Under the pieces are notes generated by a model. The model searched no databases. It saw only the letters and a program-made list of their open reading frames with translations, and was not told the DNA's origin. DNA of 64,000 bases from Collinsella provencensis (GTDB lineage Bacteria > Actinomycetota > Coriobacteriia > Coriobacteriales > Coriobacteriaceae), in contig NZ_LT904908.1 of NCBI RefSeq assembly GCF_900199705.1, forward strand, positions 1,251,243 through 1,315,242, in the 5' to 3' direction. This document shows positions 10,554-53,610 of the stretch, piece by piece. The translations under genes and the position numbers were made by a program. How positions within the stretch are numbered: position 1 is the first letter of the stretch; every line of letters starts with the position of its first letter.

Positions 10554-14096
<3,543 letters not shown>

Positions 14097-14230: not shown

Positions 14231-14260
14231 GGCCCCGGTGTAACAGCCGGGGCCTTTTTT
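14231..14260 (+). terminator. Rho-independent terminator of nifJ
   Basis: GGCCCCGG (14231-14238) pairs with CCGGGGCC (14247-14254) around an eight-base loop, followed by six T (14255-14260). It lies about 135 bases after the nifJ stop. Confidence 0.9.
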
Positions 14261-14345
14261 GATGCGGGTGCCCACTGTGGAGCACAAGTGCAGCCTGGGA
14301 TTCTCTCGTATAATCAACCGATACTGCATTTCGTTCAAAGGAGCC

Positions 14346-16739
14346 ATGGTGGGTTCTTCTGCATCTTCAACGCCCTCAACGCGCGGCCCGCGCTATTACC
14401 TGGCAATGGCCACCGCCAAAGCCGCGTCCGTGGCGCTCAAGGCCCTGCATCGAAACGCCGGGCAATTCCCCGGCGCGCTTGCCGAGGCCATCGATCCCGA
14501 TTTCATGGCGCACATCGATAAGCCCGAGCACGTCGTGTTCGTTTCGGGCACCAACGGCAAGACGACGACGAACAACCTGCTCAACGATTTGCTGGTCGAC
14601 AACGGCTTTGAGCTGGTGGACAACCGCGCAGGCGGCAACATCGCCAACGGTATCGAGTCCACGTTCATCAAGAACGCCGGCATCACCGGTCGTCAAAAAC
14701 TGTCAACCGCCGTCATGGAGCTCGACGAGCTGTCGAGCCGCCTCGTGTTCCCGCACGTAACGCCCGACATCATGCTGGTCACAAACCTCTACCGCGACTC
14801 ATTTTCCCGCAACGCCAATCCCGACTTCATCTTCTCTGTCATGAGCGAGAAGATTCCGGCTTCCACCAAGCTCGTTTTGAACGCCGACGACCTTATCAGC
14901 TGTCGCATGGCGCCGCAGTGCAAGGAGCGCGTGTACTTCGCTTTGGGCCCCATGCCCGAGGACGAAAAGGAGGCCCAGGGAATCGCGTGCGATCTCACGG
15001 CATGTCCCGAGTGCGGCGGCAGGCTCGAGTATGACTACTGTCACATGCGCCACCTCGGCCGCGCACATTGCACGTCCTGCGGTTTTACCAACCCGGAGCC
15101 CCAGTATGTGGTCACGCGCATCGACCGCGAGGCGCATACGTTCACCGTTGAGGAGCGTCCGCGCGGTGGCGCTGAGGAACGGCTGAGCGCTCTGGGCGCC
15201 GGCACCGACGGCGAGGGGCAACCGCGTTCGTACACCTATCACTTTGGAACCTACTCGCTTACGAACATCTATAACCTGTTGGCAGCGCTGGTCGTTGCCC
15301 GTGAGCTCGGGGTGTCGCCCGAGGCGATTGCCGCGTCGTTTGAGCGCGGCATCAACGTGACGGCTGCCCGTTATTCCGAGCGTGAGGTTGGCGAGTACCG
15401 TCTGATTGCCCTTGCTTCGAAGGGCGAGAATTCCACGGCGACCTCAGTTGCGCTCGATACGATTCGCCGCGAGCAGGGTGACAAGATCCTGATGCTCATG
15501 CTTGCCGATGCCCACAAGGCGGAAAACCCGGTTCAGACGGAGTACATCGGCTGGTACTACCAGTCCGACTTCGAGTACCTCACCGACCCGACGTTCAAAC
15601 AGATCGTGGTGCAGGGGGCTACCTCAGAGGATCTGCTGCTGCGCCTGCGTTTGGCAGGGGTCGACATGGACAAACTCGTGATGGTTGCCACTCCGACGGA
15701 GGCCGCCGATGCGGTGGATCTCACGCTCACGCACGATGTGTATTGGGCCTACGACATTTTTAACGGCGGCGATGTCGAGTCGAGCCGCAATCGCCTGATT
15801 GAGCGCATTGAGGCGGGCGAGCTCGCGCCGCGTGAGGTGAAGAACCTGGCGAAGGTGGATGCCGAGGCGGAGCCGGAGGATGCCGCTGGCGCAGAAGATG
15901 AGGGTGCCGCTGCCGCCGATGCGACGGGTGCGGATGTCGCGAGTGCCGAGGACGCCACTGGCGCGGACACCGCGAGCGCAGACGCCCCCCAGATGAACGC
16001 ATCTCAGCCCGTCATCGAGGTGCTCTATCCGGAATACGGTAACCAGGCGGGCGACAATGGCAACGTGATGTACCTGCGCGCATGTCTACCTAATGCAACA
16101 TTTGTCGAAACCTCGCACGGCTCGGTGCCTTATTTTGCCGAGCACACGCCCGATCTCATCATCATGTGCAATATGACGGAGCGCCAGCAGGAAGCGGTGA
16201 TTGAGCAGCTTCGCCCGTATCGCGACCGTTTGGCGCAGCTCATTGACGAGGGCGTCTACATGCTGTTTACCGGCAACGCCGCCGAGGTCCTGGGCAAGGG
16301 CATTCGTGATGCCAAGACCGGTGCGGTCGAGGGCCTTGACCTGCTCGACATCACAACCGAGCGAACCATGCGCAGGCGTTACCTCACCGTGAACGTGGGC
16401 GCGTTTGCGCCGGAGCCGGGTTCCGACCCCATGGAGGTCGTCGGTTTCAAGATTCAGTTTACGCAGGTATTCGCTGGTGGTATAGACGGTGCCTTTATGG
16501 AAAACAGCGTAGGCTGGGGCCTGAACGAAAAGGTATCGAGTGAGGGTGTTCGCAAGAACAATCTGCTTGCCACATGGATGATCGGCCCCGTGCTGCCCCT
16601 CAATCCGGACTTCACGCGCTGGTTGCTTAAAAACGCAACGGGGCACGAGGTTCCGCTGGCGTTTGAGCAGGAGGCTCGCGCGGCGTACAACAAGCGCGTT
16701 CAAGAGCTCAAGACTCCGGGCATGCATCTCGCACACTAA
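14346..16739 (+). CDS. MurT-like Mur ligase fused to a GatD-like amidotransferase domain with lost catalytic residues
   Basis: The protein has 797 residues. Residues about 1-500 resemble MurT: P-loop SGTNGKTTT (67-75), EIDEGS-like VMELDELSS, and a zinc ribbon (C220, C223, C242, C245). An acidic Ala/Asp/Glu linker spans about 505-550. Residues about 556-797 resemble GatD (LYPEYGNQAGDNGN; EGVRKNNLLATWMIGPVLP). In known GatD the nucleophile lies in a CGG motif and the catalytic His in an LHGP motif. Here these read TGN and MIGP, so both are gone. The MurT motifs NPAGMN and DGRDTSW are also replaced. Canonical MurT-GatD amidates lipid II glutamate, so this paralogue may do something else. ATG 14346 is very close to AAAGGAG; GTG 14349 is an alternative start. 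Confidence 0.8.
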   Translation: MVGSSASSTPSTRGPRYYLAMATAKAASVALKALHRNAGQFPGALAEAIDPDFMAHIDKPEHVVFVSGTNGKTTTNNLLNDLLVDNGFELVDNRAGGNIANGIESTFIKNAGITGRQKLSTAVMELDELSSRLVFPHVTPDIMLVTNLYRDSFSRNANPDFIFSVMSEKIPASTKLVLNADDLISCRMAPQCKERVYFALGPMPEDEKEAQGIACDLTACPECGGRLEYDYCHMRHLGRAHCTSCGFTNPEPQYVVTRIDREAHTFTVEERPRGGAEERLSALGAGTDGEGQPRSYTYHFGTYSLTNIYNLLAALVVARELGVSPEAIAASFERGINVTAARYSEREVGEYRLIALASKGENSTATSVALDTIRREQGDKILMLMLADAHKAENPVQTEYIGWYYQSDFEYLTDPTFKQIVVQGATSEDLLLRLRLAGVDMDKLVMVATPTEAADAVDLTLTHDVYWAYDIFNGGDVESSRNRLIERIEAGELAPREVKNLAKVDAEAEPEDAAGAEDEGAAAADATGADVASAEDATGADTASADAPQMNASQPVIEVLYPEYGNQAGDNGNVMYLRACLPNATFVETSHGSVPYFAEHTPDLIIMCNMTERQQEAVIEQLRPYRDRLAQLIDEGVYMLFTGNAAEVLGKGIRDAKTGAVEGLDLLDITTERTMRRRYLTVNVGAFAPEPGSDPMEVVGFKIQFTQVFAGGIDGAFMENSVGWGLNEKVSSEGVRKNNLLATWMIGPVLPLNPDFTRWLLKNATGHEVPLAFEQEARAAYNKRVQELKTPGMHLAH

Positions 16740-18083: not shown

Positions 18084-19697
18084 CTAGCTCTCTCTTCCCA
18101 GCGCCATGATCTTGCTTGTGAGCACTACCTGCAAAAAGTCGTCGGAGTCCTTCACGTCCACGCCGAACGCCTCGCGTGCGCGCTCTACGCGGTAGCGCAC
18201 GGTCTTGGGGTGAACGAACAGGTCCTTGCCCGTCTTGGTGTAGTCCATGCCGTTTTCGCACAGACGCACGAGCGTACGATAGATCTCCGGTTGCTTGTTG
18301 GCGAGTTCGACCACACGCGGCTCCATGTACTCCGAGAGCTGAGAAAGGTCATCGGCCTTGAGCAGCAGCTTATATACGCCCAAGTCCTCGAATCGAACCG
18401 AGCGGTTTACGTGCTTCTCGCTGTCGAACAGGCGATACACATTGATGACCTCGGTATTTGCCTGGGCGAGCGAATAGCGGTCCACCGTGCTGCTCAGGCT
18501 CACCAGATGCGTGAACAGCGGCAGCGCCGATGACTTGTGCAGTTTCTCCAGCGCGTCCTGCACCGCTTTGAGGTCGATGCCGGTCAGCGCACTGCGGAAG
18601 TTGTGCAGCATCACCAGGCGGTCGTTGTTGATGAAAAACGCCATTCCCGGGTACATGCTGCGCAGCCGACGGCGGATGGTTTGGAGCACCTCGTCAAGTC
18701 GGTCCGAATCAGCTTGGTCGACCAGGGTCACACGCACCAAAATGACCTCGTAGCAGGGATATTCGTCGATTCCCAGCATGGCAAGCGCCGAGTCGATGCG
18801 CTCGGGGGAGCCAAAACGGTCGAGCAGCAGATCGTGTACGGCGTTGTTGTTCTGCAAGAAAAGCTTTTGCTTGATGGCGTTCTGCTTGAGGATTTCCATT
18901 TGCAGCAAGCTCACGATGTTCTCGATGGTCATCGTGTCGAGCGGGGTGAGCTCGGCGTCCGTCTCGTGCACGAGCAAGTAATAATCTACTCCGTCTGAGC
19001 TGGGGATACGCACGGCAAGTGCGGAGCGCGTCGCGCCTTTTCCGCCGCGGTCGTCATCGAAGAACAGCGTGGTGTCGAAGTAGGCGTGCGTTTGGAAGGT
19101 GCTCGGTTCCCGTCGTGTGAAGGAATACGCGCTGAACTCGGTGAGCGCCGTATTGGTTCCCAGGCGTCGGTCGCGCGTGGTGTCCAGGTACGTCACATCC
19201 ATATGCAGCGTGTTTTTGAGCGTGGTGAGGATATAGGGGATCGAAGGCTGCTTGAGCGCCAGCGCCATCATGTGGCGATGCGCGTCGTAAAAGCGATTGA
19301 GCAGGGTGAGATTGGCATCGAGCACGTGTCCCAGCACGTCGAGCATGATCTCCTCGTAGGTGATCCCGGGGCTGAGCTGGATGAGCGGAAGCTCGAAATC
19401 GTCGCAGAGCTCGATGATGCTTTGCGGGGCGTTGATAAGCAGGCGTTCGGGCTTGAAGGCCATCGCGGCGATGCCGATGGAGCACATAGTGCGGAAGAAC
19501 TTTGCAACGTCGGCATCGCTGAGCTCCTGCAGCGCAAAAAAGCTCGTGATGATGAGCTGGCCCCGCTTGCCCCAGTTCTCGATATCGGTTGCTTCGAGAA
19601 CCATGGCACCTGTCAGCTCGCGATCCAAGCCAGAGGAACCAGCTATGACGTTTGCATCGGAGAAAGAGGGGAGTAGGAAAGCGTCGCGTACGTTCAT
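18084..19697 (-). CDS. PucR-family transcriptional regulator
   Basis: This 537-residue protein has the N-terminal PucR domain (about 1-125, including VLEATDIENWGKRGQLIITSFF), a long central GGDEF-like/sensory region, and the C-terminal PucR HTH (KTGKDLFVHPKTVRYRVERAREAFGVD, about 490-515). PucR proteins control purine and allantoin catabolism in Bacillus and actinobacteria. The start is at MNVRDAFLL, 19697, behind AAAGGAG. It is divergent from the AllFG-AllH-transporter-AllD genes, so it is the natural candidate for sensing a ureide or purine intermediate and activating them. Confidence 0.9.
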   Translation of the reverse strand: MNVRDAFLLPSFSDANVIAGSSGLDRELTGAMVLEATDIENWGKRGQLIITSFFALQELSDADVAKFFRTMCSIGIAAMAFKPERLLINAPQSIIELCDDFELPLIQLSPGITYEEIMLDVLGHVLDANLTLLNRFYDAHRHMMALALKQPSIPYILTTLKNTLHMDVTYLDTTRDRRLGTNTALTEFSAYSFTRREPSTFQTHAYFDTTLFFDDDRGGKGATRSALAVRIPSSDGVDYYLLVHETDAELTPLDTMTIENIVSLLQMEILKQNAIKQKLFLQNNNAVHDLLLDRFGSPERIDSALAMLGIDEYPCYEVILVRVTLVDQADSDRLDEVLQTIRRRLRSMYPGMAFFINNDRLVMLHNFRSALTGIDLKAVQDALEKLHKSSALPLFTHLVSLSSTVDRYSLAQANTEVINVYRLFDSEKHVNRSVRFEDLGVYKLLLKADDLSQLSEYMEPRVVELANKQPEIYRTLVRLCENGMDYTKTGKDLFVHPKTVRYRVERAREAFGVDVKDSDDFLQVVLTSKIMALGRES

Positions 19698-19929
19698 TAT
19701 GGCTCCTTTGCGCGTTGCACCTAGCCTACCTGCGTGCGCGGAAGTATTCATCCTCCAATTGGGAAAAGAATACGGACAAAACCTGTCCTTGCGGGAAATG
19801 AAACCAAAAAATCCACGTGTTTCAATACTCGCGACGCAAGAAGGCCGCCGCTGTCCCGGGAAACGCGGTAGCGCACCTGCGGGTGCCAGGCCATTAGCGC
19901 AGTATGGCTACTCTCAAAAGGAGGAACAG

Positions 19930-22900
19930 ATGCTAAAAACTGTGGTCAAGCAAAATTCGTATCAGGACTCCATTAACCTGATGCTGCTGACCAACAAGAT
20001 CAACACGCTCGATGGTGTTATCCAGAGCCAGATCATGATGGGCACCGACGCGAACAAGGACATCTATCGCGCCGCCGGCCTCCTCACGCCCGAGGCCGAG
20101 GCTGCCAACCCCTCCGACATGGTCGTCGTCGTCGAGACCGATGACGAGTCGATCATGGACACGGTTCTCGCAGAGGCCGAGGAGTTCTTGAACGACCTTT
20201 CCGTTAAGAAGCAGGCTGCTGGCGCTCCCGCCGAGGCCACCAGCTGGGAAGAGGCCATCGCCATGCTTCCCGACGCCAACATGGCGCTCTTCTCCATCCC
20301 TGGCGAGTATGCCGCTCCCGAGCTTGAGCGCGCTCTCGACCTGGGTCTGAACGTCTTCTCCTTCACCGATAACGTGCCGCTGGAGGACGAGGTTCGTCTT
20401 AAGCAGAAGGCTCACGAGAAGGGTCTGCTGTTCATGGGTCCCGACTGCGGCACCGGCGTTGTGTCCTCGGTTCCCGTTGCCTTCACCAACGTTATCAACC
20501 CCGGTAACATCGGCATCGTCGGCGCTTCCGGCACCGGCATCCAGGAAGTCACCTGCATGATCGACCGTCTCGGCGGCGGCTGCGTGCATGCCATCGGTAC
20601 CGGCGGCCGCGACCTCAACGAGAAGGTCGGCGCCGTGACCGTCAAGGACGCCATCGTCGCCCTCGAGCACCATGATCCCACTGACGTCATTTGCGTCATC
20701 TCCAAGCCGCCTGCGCCCGCCGTGCGCGACGAGGTCGTCGATCTGCTCCAGAAGTGCACCAAGCCGGTCGTCGCCATCTTCATCGGCGAGAAGCCCGAGG
20801 AGCACCTGGGCAAGGTCCATCTGGCCCATACCCTCGAAGAGGCCGCTCGCATCGCCGTTGACCTGGCCAACGGCGAGGCCGTGAAGAAGAACTACCTCGA
20901 GCCGCTCGACCTCACGGTTGAGGAGCCCCTGGCCGAGGACAAGACCGTTATCGGTCTGTACTCCGGCGGCACCCTCGCCGGCGAGGCTGCCATGATGATC
21001 ACCGAGGCCCTTGAGCTCGGCTCCATCATCAAGGAGGACGGCTACATGCTGCGCCACGGTGGCTACGACGTCATCGACCTGGGCGACGACGTGTACACCC
21101 AGGGCCGTCCGCACCCCATGATCGACCCCGAGGTCCGCATCCGCATGATGCGCGACTACGCTGCCAAGGCCACCACGGGCGTCATCGTGTTCGACTGCGT
21201 GCTCGGCTATGGTTGCCATCCCGACATGGCCGCCGAGCTTGCTCCCGTGATCTCCGAGTGCATCGCCGCCGCCAAGGCCGACGGCCGCGACATCCACTTC
21301 GTGGGTACCGTCGTGGGCACCGAGCACGACCCGCAGGACTACGAGCGCTCCATCAAGCTGCTCGAGGATGCCGGCGCCATCATGGAGCCCAGCAATGCCA
21401 TGGCCGTTCGCGCCGCTCTCGCCTTCAAGGGTGTCACCTTCACCGAGGCCGACCGCGAGGTCGTTCCGTACGAGATCAAGGACAACAGCCCGCTGCCCGA
21501 GCCTTCCGAGGCCGTCATGGAGCTGCTGACCACCAAGCCGCGCGTGATCAACGTGGGCGTCGAGTCCTTCAACGACCCGCTGCGCGCCTACGGCGCCGAG
21601 AGCGTCCAGTACACCTGGAAGCCCAAGGCCGGTGGCAACAAGCGTATGATTCACCTGCTCAACGAGCTCGACAAGATCGAGGGTATCGACGAGGCCAACG
21701 AGCGCATCTGCAACCGCTTCAAGGAGTCCCAGCCGGTTCTCGTTGACGTTGTCCCCGCTCACACCGTCATCCCCGAGCTCGATCGTCCGCAGAAGACCCT
21801 TCTGCACGCCGGTCCTCCCATCACCTGGGAGAACATGCAGGGCCCGATGCGCGGTTCTTGCATCGGCGCCGCGCTCTTCGAGGGCTGGGCTGAGACCGAG
21901 GAAGAGGCTCTCGCCATGCTCGAGGGCGGCGAGGTCGAGTTCATCCCGTGCCACCACTGCCACGCCGTTGGCCCCATGGGCGGCATCACCTCTGCCAATA
22001 TGGCCGTCCTTGTGGTTCGCAACCTGGCCGACGACACCGTTGCCTACTGCACCATGAACGAGGGCATCGGCGCCGTGCTGCGCTTTGGCGCCTACAGCCA
22101 GGAGGTCGTCGACCGCCTGCACTGGATGGCCGACGAGCTCGGTCCGGTGCTCGCCAAGGCGCTCAAGCTCTCCGACGGCGGCATCAACCTCAACGTTCTC
22201 ATGGCCCGCGCCATCACCCAGGGCGACGAGTTCCACCAGCGCAACATGGCCGCTACGCTCAACTTCCTCAAGGAGGTCGCGCCGCTCATCGTCAAGACCG
22301 ACGCGAGCGAGGAGGCCAAGCAGCGCGTTATCCAGTTCCTGGCCGACACCGATCAGTTCTTCCTGAACGTCATGATGGCCACGGGCAAGGCGATCGTCGA
22401 CTACGTCCGTAAGGACGTCGAGGGCTGCGTGGTTTCCACCATGACCCGTAACGGCTACGAGTTCGGCGTGCGCGTGTCCGGCCTGGGCGACGAGTGGTTC
22501 ACCGCTCCCGTCAACACCCCGATCGGCCTGTACTTCACCGGCTTCACTGCCGAGGACGGCTGCCCCGACAACGGTGACTCCGCTATCTGCGAGACGGTCG
22601 GCGTGGGCGGCATGGCCATGGTCGCCGCTCCCGGCGTCACCCGCTTCGTGGGCGCCGGTGGCTTTGAGGACGCGCTCAACATCTCCAACGAGATGGAGAA
22701 GATCTGCGTGACCCACAACTCCAACTGGTCTATCCCCACGTGGGACTTCAAGGGCGCTTGCCTGGGCATCGACATCCGCAAGGTCGTCGAGACCGGCATC
22801 ACCCCGCTGATCAACACCGGTATCGCCCACAAGCAGGCCGGCATCGGTCAGGTTGGCGCCGGCACCGTCCGTGCCCCGCTCGCCTGCTTCGAGAAGGCGC

Positions 22901-22935
22901 TTGAGGCCTACTGTGCCAAGCTCGGCATCGAGTAA
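19930..22935 (+). CDS. Fused AllF (FdrA) - AllG (YlbE/DUF1116) protein of oxamate carbamoyltransferase
   Basis: This 1001-residue protein is two E. coli-type proteins joined head to tail. Residues about 1-560 match FdrA/AllF: MGPDCGTG, NIGIVGASGTGIQE, GTGGRDLNE, and LGDDVYTQGRPHPMIDP, ending near YTWKPKAGGNK. Residues about 590-1001 match YlbE/AllG: LLHAGPPITW, FIPCHHCHAVGPMGGITS, TAPVNTPIGLYFTGF, GAGTVRAPLACFEKAL. In E. coli, allF, allG and allH encode the transcarbamylase that converts oxalurate plus phosphate to oxamate plus carbamoyl phosphate. ATG 19930 has AAAGGAGGA upstream; the frame is open further upstream without support. AllH follows 10 bases later. Very biased codons suggest high expression. 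Confidence 0.9.
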   Translation: MLKTVVKQNSYQDSINLMLLTNKINTLDGVIQSQIMMGTDANKDIYRAAGLLTPEAEAANPSDMVVVVETDDESIMDTVLAEAEEFLNDLSVKKQAAGAPAEATSWEEAIAMLPDANMALFSIPGEYAAPELERALDLGLNVFSFTDNVPLEDEVRLKQKAHEKGLLFMGPDCGTGVVSSVPVAFTNVINPGNIGIVGASGTGIQEVTCMIDRLGGGCVHAIGTGGRDLNEKVGAVTVKDAIVALEHHDPTDVICVISKPPAPAVRDEVVDLLQKCTKPVVAIFIGEKPEEHLGKVHLAHTLEEAARIAVDLANGEAVKKNYLEPLDLTVEEPLAEDKTVIGLYSGGTLAGEAAMMITEALELGSIIKEDGYMLRHGGYDVIDLGDDVYTQGRPHPMIDPEVRIRMMRDYAAKATTGVIVFDCVLGYGCHPDMAAELAPVISECIAAAKADGRDIHFVGTVVGTEHDPQDYERSIKLLEDAGAIMEPSNAMAVRAALAFKGVTFTEADREVVPYEIKDNSPLPEPSEAVMELLTTKPRVINVGVESFNDPLRAYGAESVQYTWKPKAGGNKRMIHLLNELDKIEGIDEANERICNRFKESQPVLVDVVPAHTVIPELDRPQKTLLHAGPPITWENMQGPMRGSCIGAALFEGWAETEEEALAMLEGGEVEFIPCHHCHAVGPMGGITSANMAVLVVRNLADDTVAYCTMNEGIGAVLRFGAYSQEVVDRLHWMADELGPVLAKALKLSDGGINLNVLMARAITQGDEFHQRNMAATLNFLKEVAPLIVKTDASEEAKQRVIQFLADTDQFFLNVMMATGKAIVDYVRKDVEGCVVSTMTRNGYEFGVRVSGLGDEWFTAPVNTPIGLYFTGFTAEDGCPDNGDSAICETVGVGGMAMVAAPGVTRFVGAGGFEDALNISNEMEKICVTHNSNWSIPTWDFKGACLGIDIRKVVETGITPLINTGIAHKQAGIGQVGAGTVRAPLACFEKALEAYCAKLGIE

Positions 22936-22945
22936 GGCATTTGAA

Positions 22946-23839
22946 GTGGGCATCTCCTCCGCAAGCAGCTACGCGCTCTCCCGCATCCACCCCTCTATGC
23001 GTGGAACGGTGCACTCCGTGTTCAACACGAGCTTCAACCTCGAGTTCGACGGAAACCTGCTGCATGTCGGCTCCATTGGCGGTCCGCTCTCCTGTATCGG
23101 ATTGTCGGTCGACGCGGAGGAGATGTCTTCGATGTTGGGCAGCGTGCGTGCGGGCGACCGTGCGCTCCTGCACAACGGGGTCGTTCGCATCTACAGTCTG
23201 GCCGGCGTGAGCGAGCTGGCTGTGGCGGACGTCCCTCGGCGCGATTGTTCGGTCCGGCCTCTGTCGAAGGTGATGAGGCCAGGCATGGACATCGAGGTTT
23301 CCGGGCTTCTGCGCTCGCTCGATTTGCTTGAGCAGACCGGGCTGCCGTGGACCGAGCGCTCGATTTCAGCCGTATCGGCTCTCGCTCGTTTTTCCGCACT
23401 GTGCTTTGCGGCTGACGAGCAGGGAGATGATCAGGTTGATGTCGATCGCTTCCAGGCGGCGGAGCGGGCGGTGCACGGCGCGGTCGAGTATCTCATGGGC
23501 CGTGGCCTGGGGCTGACTCCCTCGGGCGACGACATCCTCATGGGATTTGGCACGGCGTTGCGCTATCTCCACGGGACTTTGGCACCCAAGACCACGGACG
23601 CATTTTTCCGTGCGGTTGCCGAGGAGCTTCCCGGGAGGACGACCGCGGTGAGCGAGTCGTATCTTCAGGCGATGTGCGCAGGTCAGGCAAATGAGGATTA
23701 CCTCGATGTGCTTGCTCTTTTGGACTCGGGCAACTACGGGGAGCTCCCCTCCGCGTTCGACCGCGTGCTGAGCATGGGCCACACCTCGGGCGCCGACAGT
23801 CTTTTGGGGTTCGCGGCGGCTTTTGGCTGCCTCTTGTAA
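22946..23839 (+). CDS. allH: DUF2877 protein, AllH (YlbF) subunit of oxamate carbamoyltransferase
   Basis: This 297-residue protein ends with the DUF2877 signature RGLGLTPSGDDILMGFGTAL (about 188-207) and GHTSGADSLLGFAAAF. In E. coli the YlbF/AllH protein acts with AllF and AllG. I chose GTG 22946 because AAGG lies eight bases upstream and it falls just after the AllFG stop; no ATG start fits. The order AllF-AllG-AllH is conserved, with the first two fused here. Confidence 0.88.
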   Translation: MGISSASSYALSRIHPSMRGTVHSVFNTSFNLEFDGNLLHVGSIGGPLSCIGLSVDAEEMSSMLGSVRAGDRALLHNGVVRIYSLAGVSELAVADVPRRDCSVRPLSKVMRPGMDIEVSGLLRSLDLLEQTGLPWTERSISAVSALARFSALCFAADEQGDDQVDVDRFQAAERAVHGAVEYLMGRGLGLTPSGDDILMGFGTALRYLHGTLAPKTTDAFFRAVAEELPGRTTAVSESYLQAMCAGQANEDYLDVLALLDSGNYGELPSAFDRVLSMGHTSGADSLLGFAAAFGCLL

Positions 23840-23873
23840 TCAGTCATACATTCCAGAAAGGAAAGGAACGTAC

Positions 23874-25130
23874 ATGGCAGAGAAACAGAAAAAGATGGAT
23901 CTGACCGTCCTGATGCTCATTTCAATGATCGTCGCGGTCATCGCCGGCCTGGTTGGCGGCGAGGCAATGACTAAGATCCAGTTCATCGGTGACATCTTCT
24001 TCCGCTTGATCCAGATGTCCATTCCCATCTTCGTGCTTGCCACGGTCGTTAAGTCCGTCGGCGGCCTGACCCCCCAGACGCTCTCCGGCATCGGCATCAA
24101 GGGCGTCATCATCTTCATCGTGTCCTCCGGTATCGCCGCCGCCCTCGGCATCGCTCTCGGCGTTATCTTCCAGCCTGGTGCCAGCGCTGGTACCGAGGCT
24201 GTTATGGCAGCTGCCGGCTATGACGGCGAGCCCGTCGCGATGATGACCATCCAGGACACCCTCACCGGCTTCTTCGGCAACAACATCATCGCCTCCCTTG
24301 CCAACGGCTCCATGATTCAGATCATCATCTTCGCCGTTGCCCTCGGTCTGGTCATCAGCTTCTGGCGTCAGACCCACGACGAGTGCAAGCTCTATGATGT
24401 TATCTGCGAGACCTCTGACCTCCTGCTCAACATCATTCGTGGCGTTATGAACATCGCCCCCATCGGCATTTTCTGCTACGTCTCCTCCATGGTTGCTTCC
24501 GTCGGTATGACCGTTCTGGTCCCGCTGGCCAAGTACTTCCTCGTCATGGCCCTCGGCATGGTCATCATGTTCGTCGCCTACCTCATCGTTTGCGGTGTTT
24601 ACTGCAAGGTTAACCCCGTCAAGCTCGCCGGCAAGATGGTCCGCATGCTCGTGACCGCCTTCACCACCATTTCTTCCGCTGTTACCCTCCCCACCGCTAT
24701 GGAGGACTCCAAGCGCAAGATCGGTATTCGTCCCGACGTCTGCGACGTCCTGCTGCCCCTCGGCGTGCCGCTGAACTCCAACGGCGTGGCCATCCACATG
24801 ACCGTCGATGCTCTGTGCATCGCCCAGCTCTACGGCATCACCTTCGGCCCGTCTGACTTCCTGACCTGCTGGCTCATCTGCACGATGATCTCCTTCGTGA
24901 ACGCTGCTACCCCGGGTGCCTCCCTCGTGTCCCTGACCATGATGATTCCGGCTCTCGGCCTGCCCATGGAGGCCATCGGCATCTTCGGCGGTCTCGAGTA
25001 CCCGACCGGCGCTACCCGCACCCCGCTTAACGTTACCGGTGACGTGTTCGCCGCCATGCTCGTTGCTGGTCCTGACGGTATCGACCACGACATCTTCGAC
25101 GGCAAGAAGGAGTACGTGGAAGCGGCGTAA
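23874..25130 (+). CDS. Dicarboxylate/amino acid:cation symporter family transporter (DAACS), copy 1
   Basis: This 418-residue membrane protein has about eight to ten hydrophobic segments and family blocks QFIGDIFFRLIQMSIPIF, ISSAVTLPTAMEDSKRK (the serine-rich re-entrant loop), LGVPLNSNGVAIHM and NAATPGASLVSLTM. These define the sodium- or proton-coupled dicarboxylate/glutamate symporter fold. The start at MAEKQKK follows GAAAGGAAAGG. Its position after AllFG-AllH and before AllD suggests it imports a ureide or related anion (ureidoglycolate, oxalurate or allantoate), but substrate is not readable from sequence. A close paralogue follows at 25439. Confidence 0.88.
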   Translation: MAEKQKKMDLTVLMLISMIVAVIAGLVGGEAMTKIQFIGDIFFRLIQMSIPIFVLATVVKSVGGLTPQTLSGIGIKGVIIFIVSSGIAAALGIALGVIFQPGASAGTEAVMAAAGYDGEPVAMMTIQDTLTGFFGNNIIASLANGSMIQIIIFAVALGLVISFWRQTHDECKLYDVICETSDLLLNIIRGVMNIAPIGIFCYVSSMVASVGMTVLVPLAKYFLVMALGMVIMFVAYLIVCGVYCKVNPVKLAGKMVRMLVTAFTTISSAVTLPTAMEDSKRKIGIRPDVCDVLLPLGVPLNSNGVAIHMTVDALCIAQLYGITFGPSDFLTCWLICTMISFVNAATPGASLVSLTMMIPALGLPMEAIGIFGGLEYPTGATRTPLNVTGDVFAAMLVAGPDGIDHDIFDGKKEYVEAA

Positions 25131-25438
25131 GCCTTCCCGCACATCCTTACGATTACCTGCGATTTTCTTGAGACAGATTACCGCGTAACCCGTTTTCGCC
25201 CGCGCTGGATGCGCCCCAACGGGCGAGTACCTAAGACCTTTTCCTCGGATGGGCTGTGCTCGGAACCTCTGCACAGCCCTTCGGGGAGGTATGTCGCATC
25301 TGCGACGCAAGGCTGGTCTCCACTCGGACCTAAAAGCCCTTTGCCGCGTATATTGGGGCGTCGCGGCCGCCTGATCCCAGGTGTATCTCCACAACCTGAC
25401 AAAGGAAGAGTGGTTCCTTTAAGGGATTCGTGATTCCT
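25131..25438 (+). promoter_or_regulatory. Leader of the second symporter, with a strong hairpin
   Basis: No gene is visible. GGGCTGTGC (25251-25259) pairs perfectly with GCACAGCCC (25271-25279); weak flanking pairs CCTC/GAGG extend it. No T-run follows, so it is not a standard terminator. It could be a structured 5' UTR or operator for the gene at 25439. I could not match it to a known riboswitch. Confidence 0.35.
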
Positions 25439-26698
25439 ATGACAGAAGGATCGTCCGCAACAACGCGTAAGTTCCACTACAATCCCACCGTCGCGATGAT
25501 CGTCGCCATGGTGGCAGGTATCGCCGCCGGTCTCATCGTTGGCCAGGATATGACCAAGATCCAGTTCATCGGCGACATCTTCTTCCGTCTCATTCAGATG
25601 GGCATCGTGCCCTTCGTGATGTGCGAGATCATCGGCGCGGTGGGCTCGCTCACCAAGGAAGAGCTCGCGGGCATCGGCCTCAAGGCCGCTGCGGCCTTCC
25701 TGATTTCCTCGCTGCTCGCCTCCGCATTCGGCATGATGGCAACCGTCATCTTCCAGCCCGGTGCCGGCCTCTCCAACAGCACGATCGTGCAGAACGCCAC
25801 GACCGACCTCGAGGCCACTGCCGTGAGCGCGACCGATATGATCACCAGCTTCTTCTCCTCCAATATCATTTCGTCCATCGCCTCGGGTTCCATGGTGCCC
25901 TGCATCGTGTTCTCCATCTTCTTTGGCGTTGCTGTGATTTTGGTTAAGGAGAACAACAACGGCGAGTGCCGCGTGTACGACTGGGTGGTTAGCCTCAACG
26001 AGGTGCTGCTCACCATCATCAGGGTTGTAATGAACGTCGCACCGCTCGGCATCTTCTCCTACGTGTCCGCTTCCGTGGGCGCGCTCGGCATGGACGTGCT
26101 CGTGGCCATTGGCAAGTACATCCTCGTGCTCGCCGGCGCCACCCTCGTCTTTACGATTCTGTGGTTCATCCTCATCGGCACCTACTGCAAGATGAGCATC
26201 CCGCGCCTTGTTAAAAAGATGATGCCCATGTCCGTTATGGCAGCCGCCACCATTTCCTCGGCAGTGACGCTGCCCATGGAGATGGAGGACGCCAAGAACA
26301 AGATCGGCCTGCGTGACAACATCGCCAACCTGGTGCTTCCCCTCGGCGTGCCCCTGAACTCCAACGGCAGCGCCCTGCACATGGCTGTGACCGCCGTGTT
26401 CGTCGCCCAGATGTACGACATGGATTTCGTGGGCTCCGGCCTCATCCTGGTGTGCGTCATCGCGTGGCTGCTCTCGCTTGCCAATGCAGTCGCTCCGGGT
26501 GCCTCGCTTATTTCGCTCACCATGCTCATCCCGGCGCTCGGCTTGCCCATGCAGGCCATCGCGATTCTGGGTGGCCTCGAGTACATCGTCGCCGCTATCC
26601 GCACCACGCTGAACGTCAACTCCGACGTGTTCTGCGCGTTGCTGGTCGCAAAGGGCGAAGACGGCATCGACTACGACATCTTCAACGACGTCAAGTAA
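25439..26698 (+). CDS. Dicarboxylate/amino acid:cation symporter family transporter (DAACS), copy 2
   Basis: This 419-residue paralogue of the transporter at 23874 shares QFIGDIFFRLIQMG, ISSAVTLPMEMEDAKNK, LGVPLNSNGSALHM and NAVAPGASLISLTM. The second copy may differ in substrate or direction. AAGGGA (25421-25426) is 12 bases from ATG 25439 and only 3 from GTG 25430; I prefer the ATG but the start is uncertain. It lies between copy 1 and allD in the same direction. Confidence 0.88.
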   Translation: MTEGSSATTRKFHYNPTVAMIVAMVAGIAAGLIVGQDMTKIQFIGDIFFRLIQMGIVPFVMCEIIGAVGSLTKEELAGIGLKAAAAFLISSLLASAFGMMATVIFQPGAGLSNSTIVQNATTDLEATAVSATDMITSFFSSNIISSIASGSMVPCIVFSIFFGVAVILVKENNNGECRVYDWVVSLNEVLLTIIRVVMNVAPLGIFSYVSASVGALGMDVLVAIGKYILVLAGATLVFTILWFILIGTYCKMSIPRLVKKMMPMSVMAAATISSAVTLPMEMEDAKNKIGLRDNIANLVLPLGVPLNSNGSALHMAVTAVFVAQMYDMDFVGSGLILVCVIAWLLSLANAVAPGASLISLTMLIPALGLPMQAIAILGGLEYIVAAIRTTLNVNSDVFCALLVAKGEDGIDYDIFNDVK

Positions 26699-26900
26699 TT
26701 CCTCGCACCCAAGCATGGCCGAACGGTTGCGCTCGGCCATGCGGACCCCGGCCGTGGGTTGCGCGGCCAGCCCCGGCCGTGGGTTAAAACGACCGACCCC
26801 TCGTTCTCATGCGAGAGCGCCCCGCTCCAGCGCTTCGGCGCTGCGGTCCACCCCCCCCGCCTTCGTTTGAGGGCATTTGTACATGACCAAGGAGGTCTAC

Positions 26901-27953
26901 ATGCTCGTCCCACGTGAAGAGCTCAAGGCTCTTATGAAGAACAAGTTCATGGCTGCTGGTTTGCATGAGGATCATGCGGAGCAGATGGCCGAGGTGCTCA
27001 CCTGGTCTTCCGAGCGCGGTCTGCACAGCCACGGCGAAGTGCGTGTCGAGTATTACACCGAGCGCATTTCCAAGGGCGGCACCACCATCGACCCCAAGTC
27101 GACCTGGACCCAGACCGGCCCCTGCACTGGCATCCTCGACGGCGACAACGGCTGCGGCTATCCCTTCGCCATCGAGGGCATGAAGAAGGCCATCGAGCTG
27201 GCCAAGGAGAACGGCATCGGCTTCGTGGGCGTTTCCAATGTCGGTCACACGGGCGCCATCGGCTACTACACCGAGATGGCCGCCAAGGAGGGCATGATCG
27301 GCCTCTCCTGCACTCAGTCCGACCCGATGGTCATCCCTTACGGCGGCGCTGAGCCGTTCTACGGCACCAACCCCATCGCGCTTGCCGCTCCCACGGCTGA
27401 CGGCCGCATCGTGAGCTTCGACATGGCCACCACCGTTCAGGCGTGGGGCAAGATCCTCGACGCCAAGAGCGCCGGCCGCTCCATCCCCGAGGGCTGGGCT
27501 GTCGACGAGGAAGGTCTGCCCGTTACCGACCCGCACCAGGTCAACGCGCTCGTGGCCATCGCCGGTCCCAAGGGCTACGGCCTCATGATGATGGTCGACA
27601 TCCTTTCCGGCGTGCTCCTGGGTGTGCCTGCGGGCAAGAACGTGTCCTCCATGTATCACGACCTCTCCGAGGGCCGTCGCCTGGGTCATCTCAACGTGGC
27701 CATCAACCCGGACTTCTTCTGCGGTGGCGACGCGTTCCGCGAGAAGATGACCCAGGTCATCGACGAGCTCAACGCGGTCAAGCCGGGCGTGGGCTTCGAC
27801 AAGGTCTACTGGCCGGGCGAGCGCGCTCAGATGCGCATCAATGCCACCAACGAGGCCGGCGGCATCGAGGTCGTGGATGACATCTACGATTACCTCGTTT
27901 CCGACGACCTGTATCGCAAGAGCTGGGACCACAAGAACCGCTTCGCCGAGTAA
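26901..27953 (+). CDS. allD: Ureidoglycolate dehydrogenase (NAD+), LDH2/malate dehydrogenase family
   Basis: This 350-residue protein closely follows E. coli AllD by recall: RVEYYTERISKGGT, QSDPMVIPYGGAEPFYGTNP, FDMATTVQAWGKILDA, GPKGYGLMMMVDILSGVLLG and EVVDDIYDYLVSDDLY. AllD oxidises (S)-ureidoglycolate to oxalurate with NAD+. Oxalurate is the substrate of the AllF/G/H enzyme encoded upstream, so the two steps form a pathway. The general LDH2 family also holds malate and sulfolactate dehydrogenases, but the match and context favour ureidoglycolate. ATG 26901 follows AAGGAGG. Confidence 0.93.
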   Translation: MLVPREELKALMKNKFMAAGLHEDHAEQMAEVLTWSSERGLHSHGEVRVEYYTERISKGGTTIDPKSTWTQTGPCTGILDGDNGCGYPFAIEGMKKAIELAKENGIGFVGVSNVGHTGAIGYYTEMAAKEGMIGLSCTQSDPMVIPYGGAEPFYGTNPIALAAPTADGRIVSFDMATTVQAWGKILDAKSAGRSIPEGWAVDEEGLPVTDPHQVNALVAIAGPKGYGLMMMVDILSGVLLGVPAGKNVSSMYHDLSEGRRLGHLNVAINPDFFCGGDAFREKMTQVIDELNAVKPGVGFDKVYWPGERAQMRINATNEAGGIEVVDDIYDYLVSDDLYRKSWDHKNRFAE

Positions 27954-48143: not shown

Positions 48144-49382
48144 CTAGCAGTCTTCTCGCCACAGGGGCAGGCACAGACAGCTGGGACCGCCGTATCCCGA
48201 GGTCAGCTCGTCAATGGAAACGGGGAACAAATCGATGCCGGCACGATACAGAGCCTCGTTGGTCAGCTTGTTTTCCTCGTAGACGCACACTTTGCCCGGC
48301 GCCAGGGCCAGCACGCTCGCGGCATTATGGCGGCGCTCGCTCATCGATCCTCCGCAGGAAATGAGCGTGGGCGCGCTGATGCCCAGGCTCTGTTTGAGGA
48401 GTGCGGACACACCGCCGTCCAGCGACTTGATGCGGCATGTGCCCTTTTTCCGGCCTCGCACGATGCGGTAGATCTCCGCGTGGTCGAGCAGCTCGGGGTC
48501 GACGATGAACGTCTCCACATCGGCGCGCGACAGGAACGTGTCAAGGTGGATGCAGAGGTTGTCCTCGGGGACGCGCACCGCCCAAACGGATTCGATCTCC
48601 GAATTCTCGCTCCAGAGGAGCCGCCGCGCCAGCACGTCGATGGCCGCCGCCTCGGTGCGCTGCGATAGGCCTACAGCCACGTTCCTGGCATCGAGGTTCA
48701 CGACGTCACCGCCTTCTATGTGATAGGACGACGGCTCTTCGGGTGCAACCGAACACCCTGCAAAGCGCGGGTGATGCGAGAAGATTACCTGGTAAAAAGC
48801 CACTTCGCGCTCGCGATCGCTCCAGTACATATGGTTGAGCGAAAGCGTCGAGCCAATCACGCTGGCGGGATCGCGCGTGAAGAACATCGTGCTGAACGGA
48901 TTGACGAGCAGCGCATCGGCGGGATAGGGGTCGTCAACGAGGTTGGCCAAGCGGTCGTCGCCCTTTACCTGCTTGAATATATCGCCATAGCAGATGCTGC
49001 CGATCAGAGCGTCAATGAGGCTGCCGCCCGCCGCCTTCTGCTCGATCCACGCGCGTACGCTGCGCTTGAGTTCACTGCCGCGTACGCCGCATTCGTCGCA
49101 AAAGCGATCGAGCAGCGCTTCGCGCGCTTCCGAACTGGATGTCAGCGTTTCTTCCAACAGGTCGGTGAGCAGCAGCACCTCGACGCCGTTTGCTTCGAGG
49201 ATGGAGACCAGGCGTTCGTGCTCCTGCGTCGCTTTGTCAAGATCGAAGTTGCTCCGGTTGGGACGCAAGGTGAATACCTGGCCAAAGGCGTTTTCCGGAT
49301 AGCTCTTCGTCTCAAATCCCGGACGATGGAGCAAAACGCTTTTGAGCGTTCCGATCTCGTTATGTACGTGCAATCCTTGCAT
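48144..49382 (-). CDS. arcA: Arginine deiminase, divergent paralogue
   Basis: This 412-residue pentein enzyme carries the deiminase set: FTRDPASV (Asp), YHIEGGDVVNLD (Glu), CIHLDTFLS (His/Asp) and the C-terminal Cys in GYGGPSCLCLP (C402). It converts arginine to citrulline and ammonia. Compared with the copy at 51142 it is more divergent, for example GGPSC in place of GGPRC next to the nucleophile, so substrate use or kinetics may differ. It is on the opposite strand and paired with an XRE/S24 regulator. AAGGAA lies six bases before ATG 49382. Confidence 0.9.
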   Translation of the reverse strand: MQGLHVHNEIGTLKSVLLHRPGFETKSYPENAFGQVFTLRPNRSNFDLDKATQEHERLVSILEANGVEVLLLTDLLEETLTSSSEAREALLDRFCDECGVRGSELKRSVRAWIEQKAAGGSLIDALIGSICYGDIFKQVKGDDRLANLVDDPYPADALLVNPFSTMFFTRDPASVIGSTLSLNHMYWSDREREVAFYQVIFSHHPRFAGCSVAPEEPSSYHIEGGDVVNLDARNVAVGLSQRTEAAAIDVLARRLLWSENSEIESVWAVRVPEDNLCIHLDTFLSRADVETFIVDPELLDHAEIYRIVRGRKKGTCRIKSLDGGVSALLKQSLGISAPTLISCGGSMSERRHNAASVLALAPGKVCVYEENKLTNEALYRAGIDLFPVSIDELTSGYGGPSCLCLPLWREDC

Positions 49383-49460
49383 GAAAGATTCCTTACGGTT
49401 GTGTTTGTACGGCTCTATTGTCGCCCGTAGCGGAACAAATTGAGCCGATAGCTTCTAAAA

Positions 49461-49508
49461 ATTGACAAAAAATGATAATAAACGCCATTAATTGACAAAA
49501 AACGTCAA
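49461..49508. promoter_or_regulatory. Direct repeats of ATTGACAAAA between the divergent arc genes
   Basis: ATTGACAAAA occurs at 49461-49470 and 49491-49500, exactly 30 bp apart. The second continues as TTGAC-N7-GTCAA (49492-49508), a palindrome. They lie in the divergent promoter region of arcA (minus) and the antiporter (plus). They could be -35 elements, operators for the nearby XRE/S24 protein, or both. Confidence 0.5.
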
Positions 49509-49630
49509 CTTAAAAGCCAAAAACCGCCCGTTTTGCTGCCGTCCACCCGCCGCTAACGGTACCCCTCTCACTTCGATGACAGAATGACGATGCCAAAAGA
49601 AACGGCTTGTCCCAAGTCAAAGGAGGAGAA

Positions 49631-51067
49631 ATGGCAGGAGAGGGAAAGAAGCGGAAATTTACCGTACCTCACGTCTATACGATCATCTTCATCCTGATGG
49701 TCGTGTTCGCTGTGCTCACGTGGGTCGTACCTTCGGGCTCGTTCGATCGCGAGCTGGTCAACGGCCGCGAGGTTACCGTTGCCGGTACGTACACGGAGAC
49801 CGACAAGGTGTTCGTGGACGAGGAGACCGGCGCTGAAGTCGATCTGCGCCAGGGCGTGTTCGACGTTCTGCAGGCGCCTGCGATCGGCATCCAGCAGGCG
49901 GTCGAGGTCGTCGCGTTCATCCTCGTGGTGGGCGGTTCGTTCCAGGTTATCACGGCAACGGGAGCCATCACCAGCGGCGTGTCTCGTATCGTGAGAAAGT
50001 TCAAGGATAAGGACATCCTGATCATCCCGATTTTGATGGCCGTCTTCGCACTCGGCGGAAGCACCTTCGGCATGGCCGAAGAGACCCTGCCGTTCTTCGC
50101 GGTCTTGCTGCCCATCGTGATGTCTATGGGCTTCGATTCCATCACCGCGTTCATGATCGTGTTCCTCGGTGCCCGTATCGGCTACATCGGCTCCACCGTC
50201 AATCCCTTCAACGTGCTCATCGCCCAGGGCATCCTCGGCATCCAGGGCAATCCGCAGCTGTGGCTGCGCATGATCGCCCTCGTTGTGCTTACGGTTATCG
50301 CCATCGCCTGGGTCATGATGTATGCCAAGAAGGTCCGCGCCAACCCCGAGAGCTCCGTTGCCTATCAGGACGACCTTGCCAAGCGCGAGGAGTTCCTCGC
50401 CGACGGCGACGCGCTTAACGCTGAGTTCACCGGTCGCCAGAAGGCCGTTATCGTCACGTTTGTCGTGGGTATGGTGCTCATCGTGTGGGGCCTTGTCGAC
50501 CAGGGCTGGTACATGAACGAGATTGCCGGTATCTTCCTGGCCATGGGCCTTATCTCCGGTATCGTCTCCGGTATGAACGAGAAGGAAATCGCAGGTGAGT
50601 TCGTCAAGGGTATCGCCGATTTCGCCTTCTCCGCCATCGTCGTCGGTCTTGCTCGCGGTATTCTCGTCATCGCCAACAACGGCATGATCATCGATACGAT
50701 TCTCAACGCTCTGGCAACTTCGCTCGCCGGCATGCCCGCGGTGCTGTTTACCAGCTTGCTCTATATGGTTGACAACCTACTTGCCATTCTGGTTCCGAGC
50801 TCGTCCGGCATCGCCGCGCTCACCATCCCGATCTTTGGGCCGCTCGTCGAGCTCATGGGTCTGAACCCCGAGGCCGCCGTCACCGCCATGTCTATGGGCA
50901 GCGCCGCCATGTCGCTAATCTGCCCCACGAGCGCCATCCTCGTCGCCGGTCTGGGCGTGTGCAAGATCCCTCTGAGTCAGTGGTGGAAGGTCATCTGGAA
51001 GTTCTTCCTGCTCATCTCTGTTGTCTGCCTCGTATTCTCCGCTATTTCCGGCATGCTGCCGGTGTAG
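49631..51067 (+). CDS. arcD: YfcC-family antiporter, probable arginine/ornithine exchanger
   Basis: This 478-residue protein has about 12 membrane helices. An extracytoplasmic loop (about 45-80) follows the first helix, FAVLTWVVPSGSFDRE. Family blocks are GGSTFGMAEETLPFF, GARIGYIGSTVNPFNV and VPSSSGIAALTIPIFGPL. YfcC proteins serve as ArcD in streptococcal arginine deiminase operons. It begins the plus-strand arc gene run, so arginine/ornithine exchange is the best guess. ATG 49631 follows AGGAGGA. Confidence 0.85.
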   Translation: MAGEGKKRKFTVPHVYTIIFILMVVFAVLTWVVPSGSFDRELVNGREVTVAGTYTETDKVFVDEETGAEVDLRQGVFDVLQAPAIGIQQAVEVVAFILVVGGSFQVITATGAITSGVSRIVRKFKDKDILIIPILMAVFALGGSTFGMAEETLPFFAVLLPIVMSMGFDSITAFMIVFLGARIGYIGSTVNPFNVLIAQGILGIQGNPQLWLRMIALVVLTVIAIAWVMMYAKKVRANPESSVAYQDDLAKREEFLADGDALNAEFTGRQKAVIVTFVVGMVLIVWGLVDQGWYMNEIAGIFLAMGLISGIVSGMNEKEIAGEFVKGIADFAFSAIVVGLARGILVIANNGMIIDTILNALATSLAGMPAVLFTSLLYMVDNLLAILVPSSSGIAALTIPIFGPLVELMGLNPEAAVTAMSMGSAAMSLICPTSAILVAGLGVCKIPLSQWWKVIWKFFLLISVVCLVFSAISGMLPV

Positions 51068-51141
51068 GGCACGCATCAAGTACCTGCTTGTCAACGAGTA
51101 ATCAACTCCCGTAGTTCACATACGAAAGAAAGGTGAAACCC

Positions 51142-52383
51142 ATGAAGGGACTGAACGTCCATAGCGAAATCGGCGCGCTCAAGAAGGTTTGCGTGCATCG
51201 CCCCGGTCTCGATCTTGTCAATATGAAGGCGGAGGATTTCGAGCGCGTGTGGATTCACGACGCGTTCTATCTCGAGTACGCCCAGAAGGAGCACGACCAG
51301 TTCACCGACCTGCTCCGCGGCGCCGGTGCCGAGGTCGTCTACATGGAGGACCTGCTCGCCGAGACCTTCGACGCCAACCCGGCGGTTCGCGATGAGTTCC
51401 TGGGCACGTTCCTCGCCGAGAGCAACATCAAGAGCACCGCGCTTCGCCAGGCGGTTCAGGAGAAGCTTTCCTCCATCAAGGACAACAAGGAGTTCGTCCT
51501 CGCTGCCATGGGTGGCCTCTACTACCGTGATCTCGAGATCCCTCACACGGCTCGCACGCTCTCGATGATGAACAACGAGGACGTCAAGCCCGACGAGATG
51601 GTCCTGTTCCCCATGCCCTCGTCCTACTTCTCCCGCGATCCGCTGGCCGTCGTGGGCCACGGCGCCGCAATGCACCGCATGTACTGGCCGCAGCGCAACC
51701 GCGAGGTCATCTTCTACGAGACCGTCCTGCGCAACCACCCCGATTACGTGGGCAGTCCCATCTGGTACGACCACAACAGCGAGTGGACCATCGAAGGCGG
51801 CGACGTGCTGAACATCAACGCCACGACGCTTGCCATCGGTATCTCCCAGCGCACCACGCCCGAGGCCATCGATCAGCTTGCCAAGAACCTTTTCTGGGGT
51901 CCGGGCAACTCCGAGATTGAGACCATCTACGCCATCAACATCCCGTGCGGCTATGCCTACATGCACCTTGACACCGTGTGCACGCAGATCGACTACGACA
52001 AGTTCACCGTGTACCCGGGTATCTACCAGACCATGCGCGTGTACCGTCTGACCCGCGGTGCCGTTGAGGGCGAGGTGGCAATCGAGGAGCTCGAGACCAC
52101 CCTGCAGCATGCGCTCGAGATGGCGACCGGCGTGGATCACATCACGATGATCGAGTGCGGTGGTGGCGATCCCATCGAGGCTTCCCGCGAGCAGTGGAAC
52201 GACGGCTCCAATACGCTGGCCGTCGCCCCTGGCAAGGTGTGCGTCTACGAACGCAACGTGGTGACCAACGACGCCCTATATAAGGCAGGCGTTGAGCTGC
52301 TGGTTGCTCCGTCCGAGGAGCTCTCCCGCGGCCGTGGCGGCCCGCGCTGCATGACCATGCCGTTCTGGCGCGAGGAGATCTAA
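51142..52383 (+). CDS. arcA: Arginine deiminase, canonical copy
   Basis: This 413-residue enzyme has [30 protein letters not shown] and the C-terminal nucleophile motif [11 protein letters not shown] (C403). It deiminates arginine to citrulline, which ArcB downstream splits to ornithine and carbamoyl phosphate. ATG 51142 is three codons into the frame and has AAAGG upstream. It follows arcD and precedes arcB, the usual order. Strong codon bias fits high expression. Confidence 0.96.
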
Positions 52384-52397
52384 GTCGTCTTTTCGAT

Positions 52398-52445
52398 GAG
52401 GTCGGCGCCCATTCCTTCTTCCGTATCGGGCGTCCGCCTCTTTTA
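52398..52445 (+). terminator. Weak hairpin with T-run between arcA and arcB
   Basis: GAGGTCGGCGCCC (52398-52410) pairs imperfectly with GGGCGTCCGCCTC (52428-52440), followed by TTTTA. It could reduce read-through between arcA and arcB. Confidence 0.45.
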
Positions 52446-52520
52446 TGGACGATGCCTTTGCCTCCACATCGTCCCGTTCGATTGCCCAGATTTCAGCTTT
52501 TCATACGAAAGGATTTCACC

Positions 52521-53528: not shown

Positions 53529-53578
53529 GAGCTGTTGAAACCAAACGCCAGGCGAAGAGGGTATCTGCGCTCTTAGGT

Positions 53579-53610
53579 GGGACTTCCGATATATTCGGAA
53601 GTCCCTTTTT
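53579..53610 (+). terminator. Rho-independent terminator of arcB
   Basis: GGGACTTCCGA (53579-53589) pairs perfectly with TCGGAAGTCCC (53595-53605), followed by five T. Confidence 0.95.

Follow-up and report, generated by a model that had tools for sequence, protein, structure and literature searches.

A coriobacterial MurT-GatD clade that has lost the glutaminase triad and kept the ligase core

The window analyzed here, a 64,000-nucleotide stretch of the Collinsella provencensis genome, encodes a fused MurT-GatD protein that belongs to a divergent clade. As judged from alignments, the whole Cys-His-Asp glutaminase triad has been lost throughout this clade, and the ATP-, magnesium- and acceptor-binding residues of the ligase half are conserved. 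Our leading reading, a tentative one that we regard as close to an even call, is that the protein is an active ATP-dependent MurT-type ligase attached to a dead, structurally required GatD, with free ammonia as the most likely nucleophile. In a literature search on MurT/GatD in Coriobacteria, ranked so that papers with all three terms came first, the best-ranked papers did not mention Coriobacteria, and none of the papers covered by the search appears to describe this clade.

The gene, its upstream signals and the two halves of its product are located as follows.

10554 to 14096, + strand: nifJ (pyruvate:ferredoxin oxidoreductase), an upstream neighbor kept in many relatives.
14231 to 14260, + strand: terminator-like hairpin, GGCCCCGG ... 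CCGGGGCC, T6, between nifJ and the fusion gene (from sequence).
14337 to 14343, + strand: AAAGGAG, likely ribosome-binding site preceding the ATG at 14346 (from sequence).
14346 to 16739, + strand: divergent murT-gatD fusion gene, ATG start, about 797 amino acids (sequence matches).
14403 to 15812, + strand: MurT half, comprising the Mur ligase middle domain, zinc ribbon and MurT C-terminal domain (sequence matches, AlphaFold2).
15813 to 15992, + strand: variable, Ala/Asp-rich linker between the halves, low confidence (AlphaFold pLDDT below 50 at residues 493-532).
16011 to 16736, + strand: pseudo-GatD half with a class I glutaminase fold (alignment, AlphaFold2 model, structure match).

The reading frame is open from the ATG at 14346 to 16739; residue numbers are counted from the ATG at 14403 rather than from that at 14346. 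An in-frame upstream TTG at 14259 lies inside the strong terminator-like hairpin after nifJ and is an unlikely start, and the presence of this hairpin suggests that the fusion gene is a transcription unit separate from nifJ. An earlier note on this DNA had called a MurT-GatD fusion at these coordinates, and both the sequence matches and the AlphaFold2 model agree with it. The protein matched S. aureus MurT (E 4e-50) and GatD (E 5e-9), and its first and second halves were also matched by sequence to S. pneumoniae MurT and GatD, respectively. The AlphaFold2 model (pLDDT 88.5, pTM 0.87) aligned with the solved chains of MurT (Z 28) and GatD (Z 26), the best structural match other than MurT being the pseudomurein amino-acid ligase pMurC (Z 23.6). 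The MurT_C domain (PF08353) scored 45 bits, above the gathering cutoff of 25. NCBIfam equivalog scores were 136-196 bits for the MurT half (cutoff 800), 31-46 bits for the GatD half (cutoff 400-450) and 55 bits for the pMurC equivalog, under its cutoff of 560.

The glutaminase site of S. aureus is formed by GatD Cys94 and His189 together with MurT Asp349 (PMC6113224), and that of S. pneumoniae by GatD Cys107 and His206 together with MurT Asp355 (PMC6085368). The corresponding positions in the window protein are the following.

16272 to 16274, + strand: Gly624, aligned with the nucleophile Cys (C94 of S. aureus; alignments).
16581 to 16583, + strand: Ile727, aligned with the catalytic His (H189 of S. 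aureus; alignments).
15537 to 15575, + strand: TEYIGWYYQSDFE, clade-specific, which replaces DGxDxSWxxDxDFE and holds Tyr381 (alignments; role of D349 from PMC6113224).

Among the GatD halves of 32 relatives, the nucleophile position is occupied by Gly in 25 and by His in 7, and the catalytic His position by Ile, Leu, Cys or Ala, with His in none. The triad Asp (S. aureus D349), which corresponds to Tyr381 in the window protein, is absent from every clade member, and the oxyanion Gly-Gly-Gly is broken, its third Gly being Met in 31 of the 32 GatD halves. The absence of both catalytic residues from the GatD-like half, which the earlier note had claimed for this one protein, therefore extends to all 32 relatives. 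The note had also read the CGG nucleophile motif as TGN; the motif is indeed dead, but its register is shifted, since the catalytic Cys aligns with the Gly of TGN and not with the Thr (CGGYQ to GNAAE). The replacement of LHGP by MIGP stands as described, with the His aligned to the Ile. These substitutions, conserved among orthologues as the note had suggested checking, are common to all 30 MurT halves and 32 GatD halves examined, so chance and errors in sequencing can both be set aside.

No intact Cys-His pair was found at another place in the domain, and no conserved pair of this kind was present in pseudo-GatD across the 32 relatives. Pseudo-GatD has no conserved His, and its only fairly conserved Cys, C561 (27 of 32), is without a conserved His partner. 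The domain carries a new invariant set consisting of Q548, N552, F686-T687 and W725. GatD Arg128 is required for glutamine capture (PMC5871853), and the alignments disagree as to its equivalent, MAFFT placing it at V663 and HMMER near the invariant R659. R659 may correspond to this glutamine-capturing arginine, in which case a ligand pocket could survive in pseudo-GatD.

In the ligase half, both retained and rewritten elements were identified.

14547 to 14570, + strand: P-loop GTNGKTTT, including K53 and T54, kept (alignments).
14637 to 14639, + strand: N79, equivalent to S. pneumoniae MurT Asn85, which contacts the acceptor carboxylate; invariant (alignment; role from PMC6085368).
14724 to 14729, + strand: D108-E109, equivalent to the MurT Asp112-Glu113 Mg site; invariant (alignment; role from PMC6085368).
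15003 to 15083, + strand: zinc ribbon CPECG...CTSCG (alignments).
15420 to 15446, + strand: KGENSTATS, clade-specific, replacing the (K)NPxGxNQ loop (alignments).

Among 30 relatives, the P-loop, N79, D108-E109, D132, R136, N291, R323 and the zinc-ribbon cysteines vary little or not at all, the four cysteines (C201, C204, C223 and C226) being invariant in all 30. Asp132 and Arg136 belong to the interface loop, Asn291 to the adenine pocket and Arg323 to the hinge. The equivalents of the kept residues in S. aureus or S. pneumoniae either lower or eliminate ligase activity when lost or are described as important for structure (PMC6085368, PMC6113224). S. pneumoniae MurT Asp139 and Glu143, whose replacement had minor effects, are not retained in the clade.

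The changes are concentrated in the MurT C-terminal domain, where the mean identity between the clade and canonical proteins is 22%, compared with 31% for the middle domain and 25% for GatD. In the clade, NLAKNPxGFNQN is replaced by ASKGENxTATS and NDxxxDGxDxSWxxDxDFE by ADxxxA...TEYxGWYYQxDFE; the window protein reads TEYIGWYYQ where canonical MurT has DGxDxSW. A two-residue insert in the KGENSTATS loop adds the acidic residue E342, and the sequence SKGENSTATS may resemble the C-terminal loop of MurD. Invariant clade motifs of this domain are K340-G-E-N, E380, G383-W384 and Y386-Q387. This pattern bears out the description in the earlier note of a MurT half that keeps the P-loop and zinc ribbon and has lost the NPAGMN and DGRDTSW motifs.

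The divergent form is monophyletic (SH-aLRT 99), with a stem branch of 2.24 changes per column, in a tree where a few other rows are long-branched and of unsure placement. A survey of the class identified MurT_C in 285 of 398 genomes. The divergent form was found in Coriobacteriaceae (Collinsella and others) and in several Atopobiaceae genera, including all 5 sampled genomes of one genus (g15), which has sequence matches to Lancefieldella/Atopobium records. Among named taxa it is carried by C. tanakaei, C. ihumii, C. bouchesdurhonensis, C. phocaeensis, Candidatus C. stercoripullorum, L. rimae and Atopobium spp. No relatives with more than 38% identity were found outside Coriobacteriaceae and Atopobiaceae among 396 genomes sampled across the phylum. 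Within the clade the genes are arranged as a murT-gatD fusion, as split murT-gatD or as split gatD-murT, and tandem duplicates occur in genomes G335 and G164; fusion is also frequent among canonical Coriobacteriia enzymes and is hence not unusual. Between near relatives, dN/dS is low for both MurT (0.04-0.19) and GatD (0.05-0.32), indicating that both halves are under purifying selection.

Other divergent MurT/GatD forms were also encountered. Genome G078, which belongs to the genus of the window, carries a very divergent pair of murT-like (L109, 2504-3880) and gatD-like (L087, 8399-9148) genes with dead motifs, VGTTV standing for the Cys motif and NCLGP for LHGP; this pair sits between nifJ and carbamate kinase, the locus of the window's clade. 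A pair in genome G258 (L098, 1617-4413) has the Cys (ACGNAAD) and has lost the His (VLGLLP), and looks like a half-way state. A third MurT lineage (L090-L096, L102 and L103; about 455-460 amino acids; support 100) has NTAGCNQ and DGxxTxWI motifs and occurs mostly in genomes of the Atopobiaceae group, L090 coming from another family. It coexists with canonical MurT-GatD in several genomes, and no gatD was found within the flanks examined. Two further MurT-like genes (L088, 6490-7860; L089, 6396-8036) retain AKNPVGFNQN and have no recognizable GatD nearby.

The source genome (1.74 Mb, 99.9% complete), in which the closest named relatives of the fusion gene are from Collinsella, was searched for a second, canonical murT-gatD, as the earlier note had proposed. 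None was found: the genome has a single MurT_C match and a single GATase_3 match, both within the fusion gene. Its other Mur ligase-type middle domains number five, so a canonical copy or an intact GatD partner at another place in the genome can be discounted. Within the genus of the window, the divergent form occurs alone in 13 genomes and a canonical-scoring MurT alone in about 26, the latter called by MurT score with the sequence checked in G064 and G076. Only G335 (92% complete) has both the divergent form and an intact canonical GatD; G078 has the different dead form described above, and one genome has none. Fisher's test on this exclusion gave p ~5e-8, a value that overstates the evidence because the genomes are related. 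Thus, the divergent form largely replaces canonical MurT-GatD within the genus. Several near-complete Coriobacteriaceae genomes (G159, G018, G027, G050, G066, G080 and others) have no MurT_C match at all, and the ligase family therefore seems dispensable in some members of this family.

The neighborhood of the gene was compared among relatives, in which the order nifJ, carbamate kinase, divergent murT-gatD, phospholipase-like, MFS, QueT, histidine kinase and LytTR recurs in both families. The carbamate kinase gene lies elsewhere in the window.

53999 to 55006, + strand: carbamate kinase (arcC), in an arginine deiminase block (neighbor comparison).

This gene adjoins the divergent murT-gatD in most relatives and is about 37 kb distant in the window. 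Its adjacency was considered as proof of an ammonia-feeding operon, but this argument loses force: canonical genomes of the Collinsella genus that lack the divergent gene and have canonical murT-gatD elsewhere also have nifJ next to arcC, with about 630-760 bp between them. This pattern fits either differential loss of an old locus or transfer of the gene into a fixed site, and nifJ is a genomic marker outside the mechanism. The arginine deiminase block of the window (48144-55006), an ammonia-producing pathway, comprises two arcA-like genes on opposite strands, an antiporter, ornithine carbamoyltransferase and carbamate kinase. At 19360-27953 the window encodes an FdrA-like protein (matched over residues 1-509 of about 930) and the ureidoglycolate dehydrogenase AllD, which suggests allantoin- or oxamate-type catabolism.

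We infer the catalysis, acceptor and nucleophile of the divergent enzyme from these features and from published mutants. The MurT half would phosphorylate D-isoglutamate of lipid I/II at its alpha-carboxyl, giving an acyl phosphate that would then be attacked by a nucleophile not derived from glutamine, most likely cellular free ammonia, as in human CPS1. Pseudo-GatD would keep the synthetase in a competent form and perhaps shape the path of ammonia entry, and the product would be D-isoglutamine, identical to that of canonical MurT/GatD. In a lineage that meets enough ammonia, the glutaminase could go and the GatD fold would have to stay, which is the pattern seen. S. aureus GatD-C94G, which has the same Cys-to-Gly change as the window protein, lost glutamine-dependent activity and retained NH3-dependent activity at pH 8.5 (PMC3266927). 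S. aureus MurT without the GatD protein was inactive whatever the nitrogen donor, and GatD is therefore still required (PMC3266927). In human CPS1, likewise, the glutaminase domain is inactive and the substrate is ammonia (PMC4655335). However, MurT/GatD-C94G showed no ammonia-dependent activity at pH 7.5 (PMC3266927), so that loss of the Cys alone would be insufficient at neutral pH. Further, the C-terminal domain is rewritten beyond the triad, which stands against a simple ammonia model and suggests a changed nucleophile or acceptor; the ligand pocket that may survive around R659 also counts against this model. The earlier note had called the protein a repurposed cell-wall ligase that might use free ammonia or another nucleophile or serve as a scaffold. 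There is good support for a ligase that is retained and a fused glutaminase that is dead, but the word repurposed may overstate the case, since much of the pattern would follow from a mere change in the source of nitrogen.

The main alternative, unlikely but substantial, is that the MurT half joins the D-isoglutamate alpha-carboxyl to another amine, such as glycine, an amino acid amide or putrescine, with pseudo-GatD contributing to the amine pocket. The most rewritten domain, with its invariant clade motifs, is the one that holds the incoming amino acid site of Mur ligases, and pseudo-GatD has acquired its new invariant set (Q548, N552, F686-T687 and W725). The nearest structural relative other than MurT, pMurC (Z 23.6), is itself an amino-acid ligase, archaeal MurT-like ligases without GatD exist (PMC11915815), and Cyanophora is known to have D-Glu that bears putrescine (noted in PMC3266927). 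Against this alternative, no conserved neighboring gene for making or activating a special amine was found, and Lancefieldella parvula is described as chemotype A4alpha, L-Lys-D-Asp, with no mention of an extra D-Glu substituent (PMC3035223), although minor or labile substituents could escape notice in such a chemotype. Only two peptidoglycan types were found in the literature, A4alpha Lys-D-Asp for L. parvula and A4beta Orn-D-Asp for O. uli, and neither is decisive for the D-Glu carboxyl. The fuller version of this alternative, in which the nucleophile has switched, pseudo-GatD occupies the amine site and the peptidoglycan carries an undescribed amino acid or polyamine on the D-glutamate alpha-carboxyl, is a shade more doubtful still.

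It is improbable that the ligase acts on another acceptor carboxylate, in a cofactor or in a teichoic or capsule precursor, rather than on peptidoglycan. The long stem branch (2.24 changes per column) and replacement of the loop that corresponds to the DNAAD motif, a presumed stem-peptide contact, would be in keeping with such a change. However, the divergent form and canonical MurT-GatD exclude each other almost completely in the genus, which suggests a shared role, and neither the acceptor-carboxylate Asn nor the Asp-Glu Mg pair varies. We consider a noncatalytic scaffold or regulator of cell wall synthesis very improbable: the KNP loop and the glutaminase are both lost, but the entire ATP/Mg/acceptor constellation is invariant in two families, which is unexpected for a pure scaffold. 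Sequence and published mutants together lead us to favor a glutamine-independent ligase over a pure scaffold, a preference that covers ammonia and other amines without separating them. Despite the missing glutaminase motifs, a decaying pseudogene or an assembly or annotation artifact is rejected, given that the frame is open in over 30 genomes, some of them single-contig, that dN/dS is well below 1 and that the members share a single clade.

In Gram-positive bacteria, amidation of D-Glu governs cross-linking, sensitivity to lysozyme and beta-lactams, and NOD sensing, and the known D-Glu-amidating enzyme is defined by its glutaminase. The existence of a natural clade with a conserved dead glutaminase suggests that the synthetase can be evolutionarily uncoupled from glutamine, and provides a natural test of the need of MurT for GatD when ammonia is supplied. 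A glutamine-independent or novel modification of D-Glu is predicted in common gut and oral bacteria; a new D-glutamate substituent, if real, would change how the peptidoglycan of these organisms is cross-linked and how host NOD receptors sense it. An automatic MurT/GatD annotation in Coriobacteriia should not be taken to mean that amidation there depends on glutamine.

In its fold, its domain order and most of its ligase features, the fusion protein is a member of the MurT/GatD family in the wide sense. Since it lacks the glutaminase features and falls below the NCBIfam equivalog cutoffs, it should not be filed as a glutamine-hydrolyzing lipid II isoglutaminyl synthase. With MurT/GatD of S. 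aureus, S. pneumoniae and M. tuberculosis it shares the two folds, the P-loop, the Asp-Glu Mg site, the zinc ribbon, the MurT C-terminal domain and a murT that adjoins or is fused to gatD; unlike them, the clade lacks the glutaminase Cys and His and the MurT Asp and has KNPxGxNQ and DGxDxSW replaced, and the fusion protein scores far below the NCBIfam cutoffs. The archaeal MurT-like proteins and pMurC are likewise MurT-related Mur ligases, but they are archaeal and lack any GatD domain, and pMurC adds an amino acid in pseudomurein synthesis. Human CPS1 resembles the clade in being a synthetase with a retained, inactive class I glutaminase domain, which here is conserved beside intact ligase residues, and would resemble it in its working only if the ammonia reading is right; CPS1 is an unrelated ATP-grasp synthetase with another product, and its Cys is changed to Ser, whereas that of the clade is changed to Gly or His. 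The S. aureus GatD-C94G mutant shares the Cys-to-Gly change at the nucleophile, keeps ammonia-dependent amidation and requires GatD (PMC3266927), but it carries one engineered change where the natural clade has many more.
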